DNA of 64,000 nt from Pegoplata infirma (lineage: Eukaryota > Arthropoda > Insecta > Diptera > Anthomyiidae). The notes beneath the pieces were generated by a model. That model worked only from the letters and a program-made list of their open reading frames with translations. It was not told where the DNA came from and did not search any database. Below, in pieces: positions 19,501 through 53,885 of this stretch. The position numbers and the translations under genes were made by a program. Numbering within the stretch: position 1 is the stretch's first letter; the number at the start of each line of letters is the position of its first letter. The DNA lies in contig OY992537.1 in NCBI GenBank assembly GCA_963921195.1, positions 76,018,894 through 76,082,893 on the forward strand, in the 5' to 3' direction.

Positions 19501-20788
19501 TAATGTTTTGCGGAAGATTTGGGTGTATTTGCCAAAGCAAACTTTTTTTAGAAAAAATAATATTATATTACTTTGATATTCCATGCAAAACGAATTGAAA
19601 TAATCAGTCGAGGACCCCATTAAGTTTATATATTATTGACCCATTTCTAAGACACTTTAGCTATATACTTACATCCGTCCATCTGTCTGTGGAAAGCAAT
19701 ATGAAGTCCAAACCAAACAAGCCTAACATTTGGTAAATTAGTGCAAAAAAGTGTTTTTACGTTTTGGAGAGTATAAAAGATTCGGCACCGAATAATTTAA
19801 CACTCTCACTTATTTTATGTACATTTGATAAACATGTGGAACATTTTTATGTGAAATGTTTAGACTTGTTGAAAAAATAGTTTTGGGTAAAAAGGAGAAA
19901 AATGATTTTGGTGAAAAAAAAAATGTTTGATGAAGAAAAAAAATTTTTGATAAAAAAAATTAAAAAAAAAAAAAATATGAAAAAAAAAAATTTGAATAAA
20001 AAAAAAATTTTTTGATGGAAAGAAAAATTTTTTTATGTAAAAAAAATTGATGAAAAAAAAAAAATTGATGAGAAAAAAAAAAAATTAATAAAAAATTTTT
20101 TGATGTAATAAAAAATTTATGTAAAAAAAACTTATGAAAAAAAATTTATAAAAAAAAATTTAATCAAAAAAAAAAAAAAAAATTGATTGAAAAAAAAATT
20201 TGATGAAAAAAAAATGATGAAAAAAAAATTTGAAGAAATAACATAAATGAAAAAAATTGATGCAAAAGAAAAAAATTTAATAAAAAAAAAAAAAATTGAT
20301 GAAAAAAAAAATTTCATGCAAAAAAAAAATTTTTTTTTTTGTTGAAAAATAATTATGTTACTTTTTATTCACCAGCTGGTGAAAACGGCTTTATTCACCA
20401 CGAGGTGAATTATTATCCAAGTTAGTAAAATTTTTGGTTTTAAGAAAATGAAAATAGTAATTCTCATTTTCTTTTTCGTTAATTGTTAGCTTATATAGTC
20501 AAACTGAGGTGGCGTCCTGCAACTTTTTTAAAATTAGACACCAGTCTGAAAACATTATCATGTTAAAAAAAAGTTTTCCAATGAACGAATTTCATAGTAT
20601 TTATGAACAAATTCATACAATTTATTTACTTTTTCATAATATTTATAAACTTTTTCATAGTATTTATGAATAAATCATATGGGAAATTTAAGGACTAATT
20701 AACATTTTTCATAAATATTATGAAAAAGTTTATAAATATTATGAAAAAGTTAATAAATTGTATAAATTTGTTCATAAATACTATGAAA

Positions 20789-21346
20789 TACCAGAAATGT
20801 CTATAATTTTTAGAAATTCAATTTTTCTTCTGCATTTTTTCAACTTGAACCCTTATAACAAATATAATTAGAGCCCGTGCTCGATCTGTACTTACAGAAA
20901 AAATCAAATAAAATTACTGACAAAATATGTCGCCATTAGGCACGTCTCCGAAACAGAAAATGCAAATTCCTTCATTTGTGTCTGCAATTCCAGATCATGT
21001 TGGTAACCTTTGCGAAATAATGTAAGAGACAAAAAAGTTGAAAGAAAGTATGAGGTGAGGTTGAGATTGCTAGAAATAGAATTGTAGTGTTGGAAACTGT
21101 CAAAATTTATTCTGTAGAAACTATAAATATTCACATATATAAAAAACAGTTTTCATTAACAAGACAAACGACATTTAAAATCCTACTGAAGATGACACTA
21201 ACTGGGGTGTTTGAAACCGGTATAGGAAATACCAGAAATGTCTATAATTTTTAGAAATTCAATTTTTCTTCTGCATTTTTTCAACTTGAACCCTTATAAC
21301 AAATATAATTAGAGCCCGTGCTCGAACTGTACTTACAGAAAAAATC
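20789..21346 (+). mobile_element. 558-bp retroelement with terminal direct repeats and hammerhead-like motif
   Basis: Direct repeats 20785-20910 and 21226-21351 (126 bp) differ at one clear position (CGATCTG against CGAACTG). They flank a 315-bp interior with no useful ORF. Each contains GAGCCCGTGCTC, a near-palindrome, and ACTTACAGAAAAA. AAATACTATGAAA (13 bp) lies on both sides (20776-20788, 21347-21359) and is the apparent target duplication inside the older foldback arm. A ribozyme-like fold ends the interior and its predicted cleavage site coincides with the start of the second repeat. This is compatible with a non-autonomous Penelope-related element or retrozyme, by inference. Confidence 0.65.
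21181..21227 (+). ncRNA. hammerhead-type ribozyme-like motif
   Basis: Stem I pairs TCCTA (21181-21185) with TAGGA (21223-21227). CTGAAGA (21186-21192) fits the core CUGANGA. Stem II is GACAC with GTGTT around loop TAACTGGG, after a T-T apposition. GAAA is at 21213-21216. Stem III is the minimal self-complementary ACCGGT, as in dimer-active hammerheads of Penelope-like elements. The cleavage triplet would be GTA, cutting after 21222. The diverged relative at 39061-39107 keeps the core and changes both sides of all three stems. Activity is untested. Confidence 0.62.
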
Positions 21347-21984
21347 AAATACTATGAAAATAGTTCATTGGAAAAAAAAAATTTTTGTGTGTACATCGCC
21401 AGGTAATTTTTGTAAAGAAAAATCAAATACTAAATTTCTTTAGAAACATTTGTTATCGATTCCTCAATAACTAATGTTCTTAAGAATCTTTTTTTTTTAT
21501 CGATAAAAAATATCTTTAGAAAATTTTGTTGCCGAATTTGTTACCGGCACATCGATAACCATTTTTTTAGAAAAATTTTATATCAATGCATCGATAACTA
21601 ATTTTCTTTACAAAAATTTGGTATCGATAACTGACTTTCTGTAGAAAATTTTGTTATCCCTGCATCGATAACTATTTTTTTTTAGAAAACTTTGTTATTG
21701 ATACAACGAAAACTAATTTTCTTTAGAAAAATTTGCCATCGATACATTATTTTGTTTAGAAAATTTTGTTATCGATACATCGATAACAAATTTTCTTTAG
21801 AAATTATGGTATCGATACATTTATAAATAATTTTCTTTAGAATAGTTTGTTAGCGAAAACTAATTTTCTTTAACATAGTTAGTTATCGATAAATCTAATT
21901 CTCTTTGTTGTTCCATTGTTGGTTCTCGATACATTGACAGTTAATTTTCTATAGAAAAATTGTCTGTCGATATTTCAAATTCTA

Positions 21985-23314: not shown

Positions 23315-25565
23315 TGAAATATCGACAGACAATTTTTCTATAGAAAATTAACTGTCAATGTATCGAGAACCAACAATGGAACAACAAAGAGAATTAGATT
23401 TATCGATAACTAACTATGTTAAAGAAAATTAGTTTTCGCTAACAAACTATTCTAAAGAAAATTATTTATAAATGTATCGATACCATAATTTCTAAAGAAA
23501 ATTTGTTATCGATGTATCGATAACAAAATTTTCTAAACAAAATAATGTATCGATGGCAAATTTTTCTAAAGAAAATTAGTTTTCGTTGTATCAATAACAA
23601 AGTTTTCTAAAAAAAAATAGTTATCGATGCAGGGATAACAAAATTTTCTACAGAAAGTCAGTTATCGATACCAAATTTTTGTAAAGAAAATTAGTTATCG
23701 ATGCATTGATATAAAATTTTTCTAAAAAAATGGTTATCGATGTGCCGGTAACAAATTCGGCAACAAAATTTTCTAAAGATATTTTTTATCGATAAAAAAA
23801 AAAGATTCTTAAGAACATTAGTTATTGAGGAATCGATAACAAATGTTTCTAAAGAAATTTAGTATTTGATTTTTCTTTACAAAAATTACCTGGCGATGTA
23901 CACACAAAAATTTTTTTTTTCCAATGAACTATTTTCATAGTATTTGATTTTTTCTGTAAGTACAGTTCGAGCACGGGCTCTAATTATATTTGTTATAAGG
24001 GTTCAAGTTGAAAAAATGCAGAAGAAAAATTGAATTTCTAAAAATTATAGACATTTCTGGTATTTCCTATACCGGTTTCAAACACCCCAGTTAGTGTCAT
24101 CTTCAGTAGGATTTTAAATGTCGTTTGTCTTGTTAATGAAAACTGTTTTTTATATATGTGAATATTTATAGTTTCTACAGAATAAATTTTGACAGTTTCC
24201 AACACTATAATTCTATTTCTAGCAATCTCAACCTCACCTCATACTTTCTTTCAACTTTTTTGTCTCTTACATTATTTCGCAAAGGTTACCAACATGATCT
24301 GGAATTGCAGACACAAATGAAGGAATTTGCATTTTCTGTTTCGGAGACGTGCCTAATGGCGACATATTTTGTCAGTAATTTTATTTGATTTTTTCTGTAA
24401 GTACAGATCGAGCACGGGCTCTAATTATATTTGTTATAAGGGTTCAAGTTGAAAAAATGCAGAAGAAAAATTGAATTTCTAAAAATTATAGACATTTCTG
24501 GTATTTCATAGTATTTATGAACAAATTTATACAATTTATTAACTTTTTCATAATATTTATAAACTTTTTCATAATATTTATGAAAAATGTTAATTAGTCC
24601 TTAAATTTCCCATATGATTTATTCATAAATACTATGAAAAAGTTTATAAATATTATGAAAAAGTAAATAAATTGTATGAATTTGTTCATAAATACTATGA
24701 AATTCGTTCATTGGAAAACTTTTTTTTAACATGATAATGTTTTCAGACTGGTGTCTAATTTTAAAAAAGTTGCAGGACGCCACCTCAGTTTGACTATATA
24801 AGCTAACAATTAACGAAAAAGAAAATGAGAATTACTATTTTCATTTTCTTAAAACCAAAAATTTTACTAACTTGGATAATAATTCACCTCGTGGTGAATA
24901 AAGCCGTTTTCACCAGCTGGTGAATAAAAAGTAACATAATTATTTTTCAACAAAAAAAAAAATTTTTTTTTTGCATGAAATTTTTTTTTTCAATAATTTT
25001 TTTTTTTAATTAAATTTTTTTCTTTTGCATCAATTTTTTTCATTTATGTTATTTCTTCAAATTTTTTTTTCATCATTTTTTTTTCATCAAATTTTTTTTT
25101 CAATCAATTTTTTTTTTTTTTTTTTGATTAAATTTTTTTTTATAAATTTTTTTTCATAAGTTTTTTTTACATAAATTTTTTATTACATCAAAAAATTTTT
25201 TATTAATTTTTTTTTTCTCATCAAATTTTTTTTTTTCATCAATTTTTTTTACATAAAAAAATTTTTCTTTCCATCAAAAAAATTTTTTTTTATTCAAATT
25301 TTTTTTTCATCAAATTTTTTTTTTTCAAATTTTTTTTATCAAAAATTTTTTTTCTTCATCAAACATTTTTTTTTTCACCAAAAATCATTTTTCTCCTTTT
25401 TACCCAAAACTATTTTTTCAACAAGTCTAAACATTTCACATAAAAATGTTCCACATGTTTATCAAATGTACATAAAATAAGTGAGAGTGTTAAATTATTC
25501 GGCGCCGAATCTTTTATACTCTCCAAAACGTAAAAACACTTTTTTGCACTCATTTACCAAACATT
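22957..25565. repeat. right arm of giant inverted repeat
   Basis: Reverse complement of 19727-22334. Differences seen include GGAGGGTATTAG for the left-arm counterpart of ACACGCC near 22260, a one-base gap near 22313, and length changes in the poly-T tract around 24990-25250. Conservation of several nested insertions in both arms shows the duplication came after they were acquired. Confidence 0.95.
24065..24111 (-). ncRNA. hammerhead-type ribozyme-like motif (mirror copy)
   Basis: Identical on the minus strand to the motif at 21181-21227, carried there by the inverted duplication. It therefore gives no independent evidence for the fold. Its element occupies about 23946-24503. Confidence 0.6.
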
Positions 25566-27830: not shown

Positions 27831-27982
27831 CAATTAATTTTTTTTTATATTTTTTAGTACGTATTAAATGCAGCTTGCTCTCAAATATTCAGATTTTTAT
27901 ACCATGTTGGTGTTGAGGAATCAATTTTTCAAATTGGCGATTATTTCAAAAAAATTAAAAAAAATAAAATTTTCAATTTATT

Positions 27983-30125
27983 TTGACCAGTAAAAAATAT
28001 GAAAAAGCTCGTTGGGCCGAGCTCAATGATTTCTATCGGCATTTCAACTGGAAACTCTGTTTTCTCGACGATAACGTCGATGCCGCTGCAGAAATGGTAG
28101 TAAATATAATTATGCTTGGAATGAAATTATTTATTCCAACGAAGCATATTTCGGATAAATCAAAACACAAGTGTTGGTTTAACCAGACGTGTAGAAATGC
28201 AGTCAGATCCAGAGAGGAAGCGTTTAGTAATTGGCGTTCAAATAAGAACGTCGTTACTGACCTGCATCGCAAAAAGGCGAGATCCGAGTGTGCCAAAGTA
28301 CTTAGACGCGAAATGGTTTTATACGAACGGCGTCAACGTGCTAAAGTTCTTTCTGCTCCTCGGGGCAATAAAACTTTTTGGTCGTTCGTTAAAAGAGTAA
28401 AGGATAATGCTAGTTCTTCTATTCCAACTCTTATAAAGGATGATCAATCATTCACTGACCCGGTTGATAAGGCCAACCTCTTCGCCGAACTTTTTGCAAG
28501 AAATTCTTTCTTGCCGGAAAGCGATCAACCACTGCCCGTTCTCGAAAGGGTATCCTATACTATACCTTCGATTTTCTTTCGGGCCCGAGCAGTCAAAAGG
28601 GTTCTTGTGGATCTCAACGTAAACAAGTCACCGGGGCCGGATGGCATATCAGCACTGGTGCTGAAACAGTGCTCGTCTAGTTAGCACGTCCATTGGCAAA
28701 CCTTTTCAGCTCTTCGTACCGTGCGGGAGTCTTCCCCTCATGTTGGAAGGTGGCCAATGTCCAGCAAATCCCTAAAAAGGGTGCGGCTAACAACCCCGAA
28801 AATTACCGCCCAATCGCAATTTGCTCTGCGCTTTCCAAAGTTATGGAGAGCATGGTTAACTTCCATCTTGTGAAATATTTAGAGACCAATTCACTTTTAA
28901 ATGATCGACAGTATGGCTTCCGTAGCGGTCGATCTACGGGAGACCTGTTAGCGTTTCTATCGGAACGTTGGAGTCGGTCCCTCCACCATTTTGGTGAGAG
29001 TAAAGTGGTTGCTCTAGATATTTCTAAGGCATTCGATCGTGTGTGGCACGGAGCACTCGTGACTAAGCTTGTTGCGTTTGGTGTCGGTAATGACTTCTCT
29101 CGCTTTATAACGAGTTTTCTCAGAGACCGCACTATACGTGTTGTTTTAGATGGGGTCTCATCAGACGAGTTTCAGCTAAATTCAGGGGTACCGCAAGGTT
29201 CTGTTCTTTCTCCTACTCTATTTCTTATTTTTATTAATGATCTTCTTGGTCAGACCTTCAATCCTATCTACTCTTTTGCAGATGACAGCAACATTTGCCA
29301 TTCATTTTCATTCGATCACAGGCCAAGCAGAACATGAATGACACACTCAACCAGGACCTTTCCACAATCTCCGAGTGGGGTCGAGCGAATAAGGTCGATT
29401 TTAATGCACGCAAGACCCAATGTTGTATGTTAACCCACAGACGGGCTGTAGAGTCAGCATTGTCATCTGTAGCTATGGATGGTATAGGTATTGAGGAATC
29501 GGATACTCTTGATGTTCTGGGCATGAGAATACAGTGTGATGTCCGCTGGAATAAACACGTATTTCAAGTGTCGAAAGAAGCATTCAAGTGTCTTGGTTTT
29601 CTGAAACGGTGCAAGACTTACTTCACTCCATCCGATCTCCTTACTATTTATACCAGCTATATCCGGCCGAAAATGGAATACAACTCTCACATATGGGCAG
29701 GAGCTTCAGAGTCAATTCTGAAGCTTCTGGACCGTGTCCAGGGGAGGGCGGTGAAGCTTATCAATGACAGTAGTGTATCCAACTCTATTGATTCATTGGA
29801 GCATCGTCGGAATGTGGGTTGTGTGACACTCTTCTATCGATATTATCATGGGAGGTGTTCATCTGAGATAAGCGAAATTATTCCCCAGGCCCGAGTGTTT
29901 GTTCGGAATACTCGCTTGTCTCGTAGAGCACACCCGTATGTTGTTGATTGTCCTGTGTTTCGCACAACGCATTACAGAGAAAATTCGTTTTTCAGTCGAA
30001 CAATTCGTATGTGGAATAAACTCCCTTCAGAGGTCTGTCCTGTCACTTATAACTTACTGAAATTTAAATCAAAAATCCACAAACACTACTCCCTCTTTCC
30101 TCCTTCCCATACCTTATTTTCCTGA
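27983..30125 (+). pseudogene. 5'-truncated non-LTR retrotransposon (LINE) reverse transcriptase, two frameshifts
   Basis: Three open segments form one protein: 27983-28684, 28693-29337 and 29295-30125. The first has no ATG and starts inside the linker before the reverse transcriptase, so the endonuclease part is missing. NKSPGPDGIS ends segment 1. Segment 2 carries NYRPIAICSALSKVMES, catalytic D109 in ALDISKAFDRVWH, GVPQGS (165-170) and the catalytic FADD (195-198). Segment 3 is the usual C-terminal domain ending WNKLPSEV. One-base losses near 28680 and 29325 break the frame. Domain order fits the Jockey/CR1 group; the clade is not certain. Codon use and GC are clearly above the neighbours, as for a recent insertion. 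Confidence 0.93.
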
Positions 30126-38650: not shown

Positions 38651-38916
38651 TTGGCATTCCCTAAAATCATTCAATTTTCAAAATCACTGAATTAATTCTT
38701 TCAAGAGTTCATTCCTTAAGAATGATCATTCAACTTGAATCATTATTTTTTTAATCAAACTCAATCTACTACAAATTGAATGATGAAATTTTCTCATCAT
38801 TCATTTTAAAACAGTGAAGCGCAACACACATACACACACATTTAAGCTTGTGTGGGAAGCAGCAGCCGATCGTTTACACACGAAGATGCTTAAAATGCAA
38901 ACAAGCAACACATTAT
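38651..38916. repeat. GAATTAATTC-rich DNA
   Basis: Words ATTCAATT, GAATTAATTC and GATCATTCAA recur here and again at 39610-39850, suggesting one AT-rich repeat split by the element at about 38917-39605. A short CACACA run lies at 38825-38845. Confidence 0.5.
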
Positions 38917-39605
38917 TGTTTCTGTAAAGACAGTCGAGCTCAGGCTCTAATTATAATTATGTATTATAATTTTTTGAATTGTTATATATGGTTTTGAATT
39001 GAGAAAAGTGTGAAAGAAAATTTTTTTAATTTTTCTAAAAATTTAAGACATCCTGGTTTGTTTCTTACTAGTTTCATATTATCCAGTTATAATAATCTTC
39101 AGAAAAACTTTTAATGTCAAATTTATTAAGTTAATAGTCAATAGAACTCTATATGTGAAAATTATTAACAGATCGCAGCCGACAAGGATTGAACTCATCA
39201 TCATCTGTAATACTTTGCTATTAACTGCTTGTAACGTACAATCACTCGATACGCCAAGTAGGCTGTTAAGCAAGTATCAACTAAATATGATTTTTTTAAT
39301 TCGAGTGTGGTTGTTGCTGTTGTTTTTTTTAACAGAAGGGTTGTTATTGTAATTATGTGTAAACAAACTTTTATTTTTAGTAATCATTATTCTTCTTCCT
39401 CTCCTTCATCAATTCTGATCTAAGTACTTATTTTTGCAAACATTGCCAGACATGGTCTATATTTTAGACACAAATGTTAGGTGTTGCCATTTTTCCAAAG
39501 ATACTGATTATTGCCACTTAGGGCGACTTATAGTCGTTATTTTTAAATTATTGTTTCTGTAAATAATTATTAATTATAATTATGTAATATAATTTTTTGA
39601 AAATA
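38917..39605 (-). mobile_element. second, diverged ribozyme-bearing element
   Basis: TGTTTCTGTAAAGACAG, GAGCTCAGGCTCTAATTATAA and GTATTATAATTTTTTGA (38919-38980) are the diverged complement of the terminal repeat at 20870-20900. A shortened copy follows at 39548-39601. Between them, on the minus strand, lies the motif at 39061-39107. The interior has no ORF of note. Family membership is clear from shared order; the exact limits are not. Confidence 0.6.
39061..39107 (-). ncRNA. hammerhead-type ribozyme-like motif, diverged
   Basis: On the minus strand: TTTTT, CTGAAGA, T, TATTAT, loop AACTGG, ATAATA, T, GAAA, CTAGTA, AGAAA. Stem II is six perfect pairs. Stem III is ACTAGT, self-complementary like ACCGGT in the other copy. 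Stem I pairs TTTTT with AGAAA (one G-T), and a further C-G pair can extend it. The core, the T-T apposition and AACTGG match 21181-21227 although every stem sequence changed. Confidence 0.62.
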
Positions 39606-46400: not shown

Positions 46401-46591
46401 AAATATATCGACTAAGAAAAATATTAAAGTTCGAAAATACCAATTGTGATTTGTATATTACTCCATTTTTTTTTTTAAATATCAATTAAAATTTAAAAAG
46501 GATCACAAAATCTATCGAAATTTAAAAAAATACACGTAACTTTAAATTAATTGACTATGACTTAAACTTGAAAAAATAAATAAAATAAATT

Positions 46592-46656
46592 ATTGTTTCT
46601 GTAAAGACAGTCGAGCTCAGGCTCTAATTATAATTATGTATTATAATTTTTTGATT
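46592..46656. repeat. solo terminal-repeat fragment of the ribozyme family
   Basis: ATTGTTTCTGTAAAGACAG, GAGCTCAGGCTCTAATTATAA and GTATTATAATTTTTTGA match 38917-38980 almost exactly. No ribozyme motif follows, so it is a fragment or solo repeat. Confidence 0.75.
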
Positions 46657-47060
46657 TGTTTTTTGATTTTGTTAAAATAACTTAAAGCTGAACAAAAAAT
46701 AAAAAGAATTCCAAAAAATCAATTAAACTCCCAATTTTTGTTTTGTAGTTTCAAGATCCTTTTTTGAATTTAATTTGAGATTTATCAATTTTATTTGATT
46801 TTTTTTTTAATTCTAATTGAATTTTCGAAATTTTAGTGATTTTTTTTAAATTTTAATTAAACTTTTTTGAATTCGAATTTATTCTTTTTATTTCAATGGA
46901 TTTATTTAGAATTTTAAGTGATTTTGTTTTGTATTCCACTTTATTTTTTTGAATTCCGATTGAGTTTTTTGAATTTCAATGGATTTTTGGGAATTTCAAG
47001 TGATCTTTTTTGAATTTCAGTTGATATATTTGAATTTTAGTATTCAATGAATTTTTTGAA
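46657..47060. repeat. degenerate TTTTTTGAATTTCAATTGA repeat
   Basis: About 20-24-bp imperfect units with GAATTTCAATTGA and TTTTTTGAATT. Comparable words lie at 49260-49470. Not coding. Confidence 0.65.
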
Positions 47061-53679: not shown

Positions 53680-53885
53680 GTAAGTACGCATTGAGCCCGA
53701 GCTCGATCTCTTCTCACAGAAAAAAAAAAACAAATAAAATTACTAATAAAATATGTCGCAATTAGGCACGTCTCCGAAACAGAAAATGAAAATTCCTTCA
53801 TTTGTGTCTGCAATTCCAGATCATGCTGGTAACCCTTGTAAGATGTTAATGTAATGTTAGAGACAAAAATTTGAAAGAAAGTATG
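53680..53885 (+). mobile_element. truncated copy of the ribozyme-bearing element
   Basis: GAGCCCGAGCTCGATCT, CACAGAAAAAA, AGGCACGTCTCCGAAACAG and TGTCTGCAATTCCAGATCATG follow 20870-21052 closely. It begins just after a simple tract and stops before the ribozyme motif, so it is a fragment. Confidence 0.8.

Follow-up and report, generated by a model that had tools for sequence, protein, structure and literature searches.

Results

Two hammerhead variants and their copies

The 64,000-nucleotide (nt) stretch of the Pegoplata infirma genome analyzed here (the window) carries, at positions 21170-21242 of the plus strand, a sequence in which all parts of a type I hammerhead ribozyme can be read. Its core follows the pattern CTGANGA/GAAA, here with CTGAAGA; position 7 of the hammerhead core is free to vary. 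Around this core lie an inner stem I (TCCTA/TAGGA), a stem II (GACACT/GGTGTT) with a U.U at its base (21193/21212), an outer stem I helix (GACATTT paired with AAATGTC) that closes an internal loop, and a stem III made of the palindrome ACCGGT. A diverged copy on the minus strand represents a second family (B), with the corresponding parts GTTTTT/AGAAAC, TATTAT/ATAATA, ACTAGT, and GACATT/GATGTC. The elements are as follows.

21170..21242, plus strand: type I hammerhead, family A (sequence, covariation, and model R1)
21170-21176/21236-21242, plus strand: family A outer stem I (sequence)
21181-21185/21223-21227, plus strand: family A inner stem I (sequence)
21186-21192 and 21213-21216, plus strand: family A core (sequence)
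21194-21199/21206-21211, plus strand: family A stem II (sequence)
21216-21221, plus strand: family A palindromic stem III (sequence)
39047..39118, minus strand: family B hammerhead, stem III ACTAGT (sequence and model R1)

A third copy, identical to the first, occupies 24050-24122 of the minus strand (motif match 24076-24106). Covariance model R1, which was built on the 30 aligned copies described below, gave 101.6 bits for 21170-21242 and 87.2 bits for 39047-39118, each of these copies being itself part of the model. The first-pass annotation of this DNA had pointed to hammerhead-like motifs at 21181-21227 and 39061-39107, and both are present with the parts it named, the latter on the minus strand. 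The cut is predicted after GUA, with A preceding it, between 21222 and 21223, so the anatomy predicts the same 5′ end, at 21223, as that annotation had. The annotation also proposed a minimal, Penelope-type stem III acting in dimers. Stem III is palindromic in both families, which would fit what dimer action needs, but its six nucleotides and the extended stem I depart from the minimal design.

A loose core pattern on its own was uninformative, with 6 matches in the window against 10.4 expected. Once the loop AACTGG was required, the pattern CTGANGANN{3,12}AACTGGN{3,12}GAAA matched the window three times and none of 100 shuffles. Across the 1.384-Gb genome, CTGANGATN{4,12}AACTGGN{4,12}GAAA yielded 9,946 matches (4,809 + 5,137), against a single one for the reversed-pattern control. 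The motif in the window is a real and large hammerhead family. The Rfam hammerhead models, proposed earlier as a check, did not find the window copies: nothing in the window reached the gathering score, and nothing appeared around the two motifs up to an E value of 10.

The compensatory changes around a fixed core that had been claimed from two copies were upheld in an alignment of 30 copies from both families, picked for diversity among the copies at hand. In this alignment, 89.7% of the cells were paired, compared with 80.9% after shuffling, 56 cells were changed on both sides (16.9 shuffled), and the covariation score was 0.343 (0.181 shuffled); none of 500 shuffles was as high in any of the three measures. 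When one partner was slid by 1 to 3 columns, pairing fell to 31-55%. The number of pairs with a double change (11 versus 8.9 shuffled; 58/500 as high) and that of further pair types (25 versus 25.2; 330/500 as high) did not rise above the shuffles. The double changes mostly reflect the difference between families A and B. Separate compensations were found in stem I (G-C for A-U in loci L018 and L023), in stem II (G-C for C-G in L026), and between B subfamilies (A-U/U-A, columns 38-55).

The same genome pattern also led to a different hammerhead-like motif in L028 (1476-1566, minus strand), with CTGATGA, a GGGG/CCCC stem II, and ACGACCGT as stem III, to which model R1 subsequently assigned an E value of 8 × 10−4. 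This motif adjoins a short match to the Penelope 3′ end in the opposite orientation and is perhaps the intact ribozyme of another Penelope family.

In the best single-strand folds of the A and B monomers, core bases were paired elsewhere and an open core was absent; RNAalifold paired the core with stem III. A kissing loop between CTGG of loop II and CCAG of the stem I internal loop was considered and was not supported. A pattern search that left both motifs open returned 664 matches, 100 of which were listed and counted twice by eye. Among these 100, 41 were altered in one or both motifs and 2 in both, and none was compensated; the CTAA variant of loop II occurred six times among the listed matches, each time with CCAG retained.

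Noncoding carrier units

The ribozymes are carried by noncoding units of 442 nt (A; G+C, 31.4%) and 630 nt (B; G+C, 28.7%), in which no protein-coding frame was found. Some units form head-to-tail arrays, with tandem units present in L009 to L014. Locus L009 holds seven ribozymes at 442-nt spacing, with six complete units that are all identical, and is apparently young; L013 holds two ribozymes 630 nt apart. The two units can be aligned (68%) only from position 390 to position 153 of unit A, that is, from just upstream of the ribozyme to beyond both of the end sites described below. Inside this stretch, the block that contains two small predicted hairpins shows 77.6% identity between the families. 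The inserts in the window and their parts are listed here.

20776..20788, plus strand: left copy of the target-site duplication (AAATACTATGAAA; identical over 13 nt to 21347-21359)
20789..21346, plus strand: family A retrozyme insert of 558 nt, spanning some 1.3 of the 442-nt units (98.2% against the L009 unit)
21291..21299, plus strand: site 1 sequence (CCCTTATAA), the commoner family A 3′ end region (24/52 first-set events)
21312..21338, plus strand: two predicted hairpins, GAGC..GCTC and CTGTA..TACAG, between sites 1 and 2 (both families)
21347..21359, plus strand: target-site duplication, right copy (13-nt match to the left copy)
23941..24510, minus strand: inverted copy of the family A insert, with its hammerhead at 24050-24122 (arm of a 2-kb inverted repeat)
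38912..39600, minus strand: family B retrozyme insert, spanning some 1.1 of the 630-nt units (92.8% against the L013 unit)
46586..46660, minus strand: family B fragment of 75 nt, from unit 80 to 155 (98.7%; sequence)
53693..53885, plus strand: family A fragment, unit 90 to 271, without ribozyme (86%; sequence)

Counted from the first base after the predicted cut, the family A insert runs from unit position 1 to 129 as aligned; its 5′ end lies a few nucleotides beyond the predicted cut, site 1 was copied through, and the 3′ end falls at site 2. A 129-nt direct repeat (20782-20910/21223-21351; 98%, 441-nt spacing) overlaps it, and the two hairpins recur at 20871-20897. Both A copies lie inside a 2,049-nt inverted repeat (20266-22314/22978-25026; 99%, 663 nt between the arms) that looks like a recent palindromic duplication, and the copy at 23941-24510 is attributed to duplication and not to an independent insertion. 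The family B insert runs from unit 86 to 152 and ends at B site 2. The 5′-truncated fragment at 46586-46660, found without selection for a ribozyme, likewise ends at site 2; the fragment at 53693-53885 ends at neither site.

In L018, L023, and L043, the 5′ flanks share sequence with GGTTCGATACC-like letters, which we take to resemble a Pol III B box; these loci perhaps represent a further retrozyme family with another body.

Two regions of 3′ ends

To locate the ends of retrozyme copies, we placed each copy on the unit of its family, numbered from the base that directly follows the predicted cut. The first set consisted of the window and 60 loci around matches among the first 100 listed for the genome pattern (first 15 Mb of contig C1); loci L001 to L008 duplicated others and were left out of the counts. 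Of 72 chained events called, 11 were dropped, namely, four with a 3′ flank like that of an earlier event, six without a ribozyme core, and one at a locus edge; one of the dropped events (L051) was judged on a low-complexity flank. In 50 of the remaining 61 events, the 3′ end lay in one of two intervals downstream of the predicted cut, at about 70-96 or 120-163 nt. Family A contributed 41 of 52 (24 at unit 70-94 and 17 at 120-135) and family B all 9 (5 at unit 79-96 and 4 at 152-163); the sites are spaced by about 50 nt in A and about 75 nt in B. The 5′ ends were scattered: the best pair of intervals captured 41/52 of the family A 3′ ends, compared with 19/52 of the 5′ ends, and 60 uniform draws never gave more than 17.

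Since the intervals had been set on the first set, later copies were scored against them as fixed, and 19 of 28 further copies fell inside. The 20 further B copies came from the same listing as the first set and the 8 further A copies from the open-motif pattern search; the duplicate-flank filter was applied to the first set only. For family B, 14 of the 20 further loci ended within the intervals, although one of these 14 (L077) more likely ends at the insertion of another transposon, and six ends lay exactly or nearly at unit 81, after CCATATATAA. All but one of the 20 (L080, at 268) were within 8 nt of an interval. Five of the eight further A copies fell inside, a sixth lay 1 nt outside, and two ended at 45-48. 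Ends outside the intervals thus amounted to 11/61 first-set and 9/28 further events; two of the first-set misses (L059 and L052) have inner deletions and then end near the site 1 sequence. Family A ends at unit 48 (L012), 45 (L106), and 48 (L107) possibly mark a minor third start site at 45-48.

The retrozyme ends are A/T rich, and some B copies (L024 and L020) have extra A runs after TATAA. Target-site duplications of at least 8 nt flanked 15 of 50 copies, against 3.2 expected, or 10 against 1.4 when low-complexity ones were set aside. In the first 10 nt beyond 50 ends, A+T reached 81.4%, compared with 71.8% in the loci overall. Fourteen of the 61 events were longer than one unit, a share that is inflated because the first 20 loci were chosen partly for tandem or inverted pairs. 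Such events imply that the template passed the cut site repeatedly, as would a circular or an uncleaved multimeric RNA. The retrozyme in L015 forms a head-to-head pair, the one clear case, with outward ends at unit 81 and, by chained pieces, 133.

A cleavage scar was also sought, in the form of a pile-up of 5′ ends at the cut, and was rejected: only 1 of 52 family A events began within 8 nt of the cut, about what chance would give, and that event is the window insert. Both L015 and L050 are interrupted at ...CTTATAAC by an insert that starts with CAGGGA, and unit positions 71-78 are seemingly repeated beyond it; the inserts are probably hAT-like transposons that chose the same site.

The resident Penelope-like element

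A GIY-YIG search of the genome led to five places. One of them, L071, encodes RVT_1 and GIY-YIG and is accordingly a Penelope-like element; among the 120 listed of its 248 relatives, every named source was a fly genus (Haematobia, Musca, Lucilia, Eurosta, Rhagoletis, and Episyrphus). Its 3′ region gave 44 matches, from which the query itself (1) and matches confined to a flanking repeat (query 407 onward; 28) were excluded, leaving 15 pieces at 12 places that belong to the element. Six of these pieces ended at query 390-397, eight at 414-435, and one at 376. Therefore, 14 of the 15 fall into two clusters about 30-40 nt apart, approximately 60-67 and 84-105 nt downstream of the cut predicted after query 330. 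The short ends stop close to ...ATTTATTATTT(ATAA), with ...TATAA in two of the six, and the long ends close to ...GGTCGAATAAAAACAACTTTA(GTTAATTA); their likeness to the retrozyme ends was judged by eye. At these places, three head-to-head pairs were found, and in each of them one outward end was short and the other long.

C4:86879660-86880535: head-to-head Penelope-like pair
C5:59546459-59546789: head-to-head Penelope-like pair
C1:14621282-14621593: head-to-head Penelope-like pair

In two of the pairs, the aligned start of the short partner (query 325 and 329) is close to the predicted cut. In the element's own hammerhead-like motif, the core U is replaced by A in 14/14 copies read, and this change probably renders the motif inactive.

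In L108 (154-185), a retrozyme 3′ end abuts ATTCGACCTTT, which resembles the Penelope tail in reverse complement; the retrozyme may have inserted beside or into a Penelope copy there. The window itself holds, at 27968-30125, three consecutive open frames, of which the middle one has a reverse transcriptase domain (RVT_1), a broken LINE-like element.

Discussion

The carriers described here are a new member of the animal retrozymes. PMC7229834 and PMC7761336 describe animal non-LTR retrozymes as tandem and dispersed noncoding units with type I hammerheads and low G+C, about 150-450 bp long (about 170-400 nt in the abstract) with G+C below 45-50% and, where present, target-site duplications of more than 4 bp. 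The P. infirma elements share with them the type I anatomy, dimer-to-multimer tandems, lack of coding capacity, low G+C, target-site duplications that exceed 4 bp (13 bp for the window insert), and the presence of Penelope-like elements in the same genome. Unit A (442 nt) lies inside the wider of these size ranges and above that of the abstract; unit B (630 nt) exceeds both. In the portions of both papers considered here, most invertebrate retrozyme motifs are described as active monomers, whereas stem III is palindromic in this insect; two-site 3′ ends receive no mention there.

The axolotl satellite hammerheads described in PMC7229834 share traits of design with those of the window. HHR_Amex1 has a very weak helix III with a palindromic tetraloop, HHR_Amex2 has a U.U mismatch at the base of helix II, and both occur in tandem units of about 330-350 nt and are prone to dimers, as the hammerheads of the window would be. 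The latter combine the two traits, in a host of another phylum; the likeness is one of described design.

We favor, with a probability of about 0.72, an explanation in which a hammerhead retrozyme forms multimers, is cut through dimers, circularizes, and is copied by a Penelope enzyme from two internal sites. Tandem copies would be transcribed as multimers, in which neighboring ribozymes would use the palindromic stem III to pair with each other and would cleave after GUA (21222/21223), and the monomers would be joined into circles. A Penelope-like reverse transcriptase/GIY-YIG endonuclease would then nick AT-rich DNA, and copying would begin at either of the two internal sites downstream of the cut, with the two hairpins between them, giving a short end at about +75 to +90 or a tailed end at about +120 to +163. 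It would pass through the ribozyme, at times for more than one unit, and stop at variable 5′ ends. Cleavage, dimer action, circles, and the Penelope enzyme as the copier are all steps that we infer from sequence as parts of this best explanation.

The Penelope enzyme is proposed as the mover on the basis of the retrozyme 3′ ends in two intervals, the two-ended resident Penelope-like element, and the two internal starts known from Anolis. According to PMC11167929, the purified Anolis Poseidon enzyme PAc begins reverse transcription internally, at two neighboring sites, which are linked to copies that have or lack a 30-40-bp tail; it cuts and extends both target strands, prefers AT-rich targets, and can dispense with hammerhead cleavage in vitro. 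For Anolis, the cut is placed at +26 and the main start at +111 to +118 of the ORF. The distance between them is approximately 85-92 nt, to be compared with 70-96 for the first retrozyme interval. Retrozymes and PAc have in common two sites downstream of the ribozyme, copies with and without a tail, and AT-rich targets. They differ in that the retrozyme units are noncoding, with an extended stem I, and in that the tail is longer (about 50 nt in A and 75 nt in B). In the minimal Penelope hammerhead, helix III is without nonconserved nucleotides, whereas the window copies have the six-nt palindromes ACCGGT and ACTAGT. The Penelope link suggested in the first pass has to be recast: the carriers are noncoding 442- and 630-nt retrozyme units, but their copies end like Penelope copies.

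Several observations count against the mechanism. The 5′ ends of family A do not build up at the cut, the monomer folds and RNAalifold pair the core elsewhere, and the hammerhead motif of the resident Penelope-like element is degenerate in every copy read. Moreover, the sites are spaced more widely in the retrozymes than in the Penelope-like element, and 11 first-set and 9 further retrozyme ends fall outside the two intervals.

Alternatively, the retrozyme could be moved by a LINE-type, non-Penelope enzyme, its two ends being preferred A/T-rich stops, a reading that we consider unlikely. The RVT_1 frame of a LINE-like element inside the window speaks for it, as do the A/T-rich ends and the extra A runs after TATAA. 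However, in both families the ends form two discrete regions that are separated by hairpins, the resident Penelope-like element is two-ended as well (in a comparison that set the retrozymes against this one element), and outward-facing long/short pairs occur in the Penelope-like element (three) and, in one clear case, in the retrozymes.

It is less probable still, and in our judgment distinctly improbable, that the units are an ordinary satellite or SINE-like repeat with an inherited, functionless hammerhead. The copies number in the thousands, many with changed loops or core flanks, and the predicted monomer folds show no open core; yet the core, the helices, and the palindromic stem III have been retained in two families with compensating changes, and further separate compensations are seen in L018/L023 and L026. 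Chance resemblance, to which the uninformative loose core pattern and the lack of Rfam matches in the window might point, has a negligible probability and is already contradicted by the 9,946 genome matches against 1 and by the covariation in 30 copies.

Retrozymes may stand to Penelope as SINEs stand to LINEs, carrying a stand-in for the two-site start region while the hammerhead makes the circles on which internally initiated copying gives multimers; we would put even money on this reading. The stand-in would consist of the first A/T-rich end, the two hairpins, and the second A-rich end.

In the two 2020 papers (PMC7229834 and PMC7761336), the candidacy of Penelope-like elements as movers is called strong or likely, on the grounds of coexistence and of the type I hammerheads of both. 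The titles and abstract openings that the literature search covered contained no report of 3′ ends shared by retrozymes and Penelope. That retrozymes and a Penelope-like element from the same genome share a two-site 3′-end pattern is more direct sequence evidence on the mover, and the pattern can be counted in any genome that bears retrozymes. The family also offers what appears to be an insect case of an amphibian-like, dimer-prone hammerhead, with copies in the window that Rfam models miss, and it is most useful for its Penelope-like ends. If the proposed mechanism is true, the 3′ ends of genomic copies would name the mobilizing enzyme, a question left open in the available text of PMC7229834 and PMC7761336.
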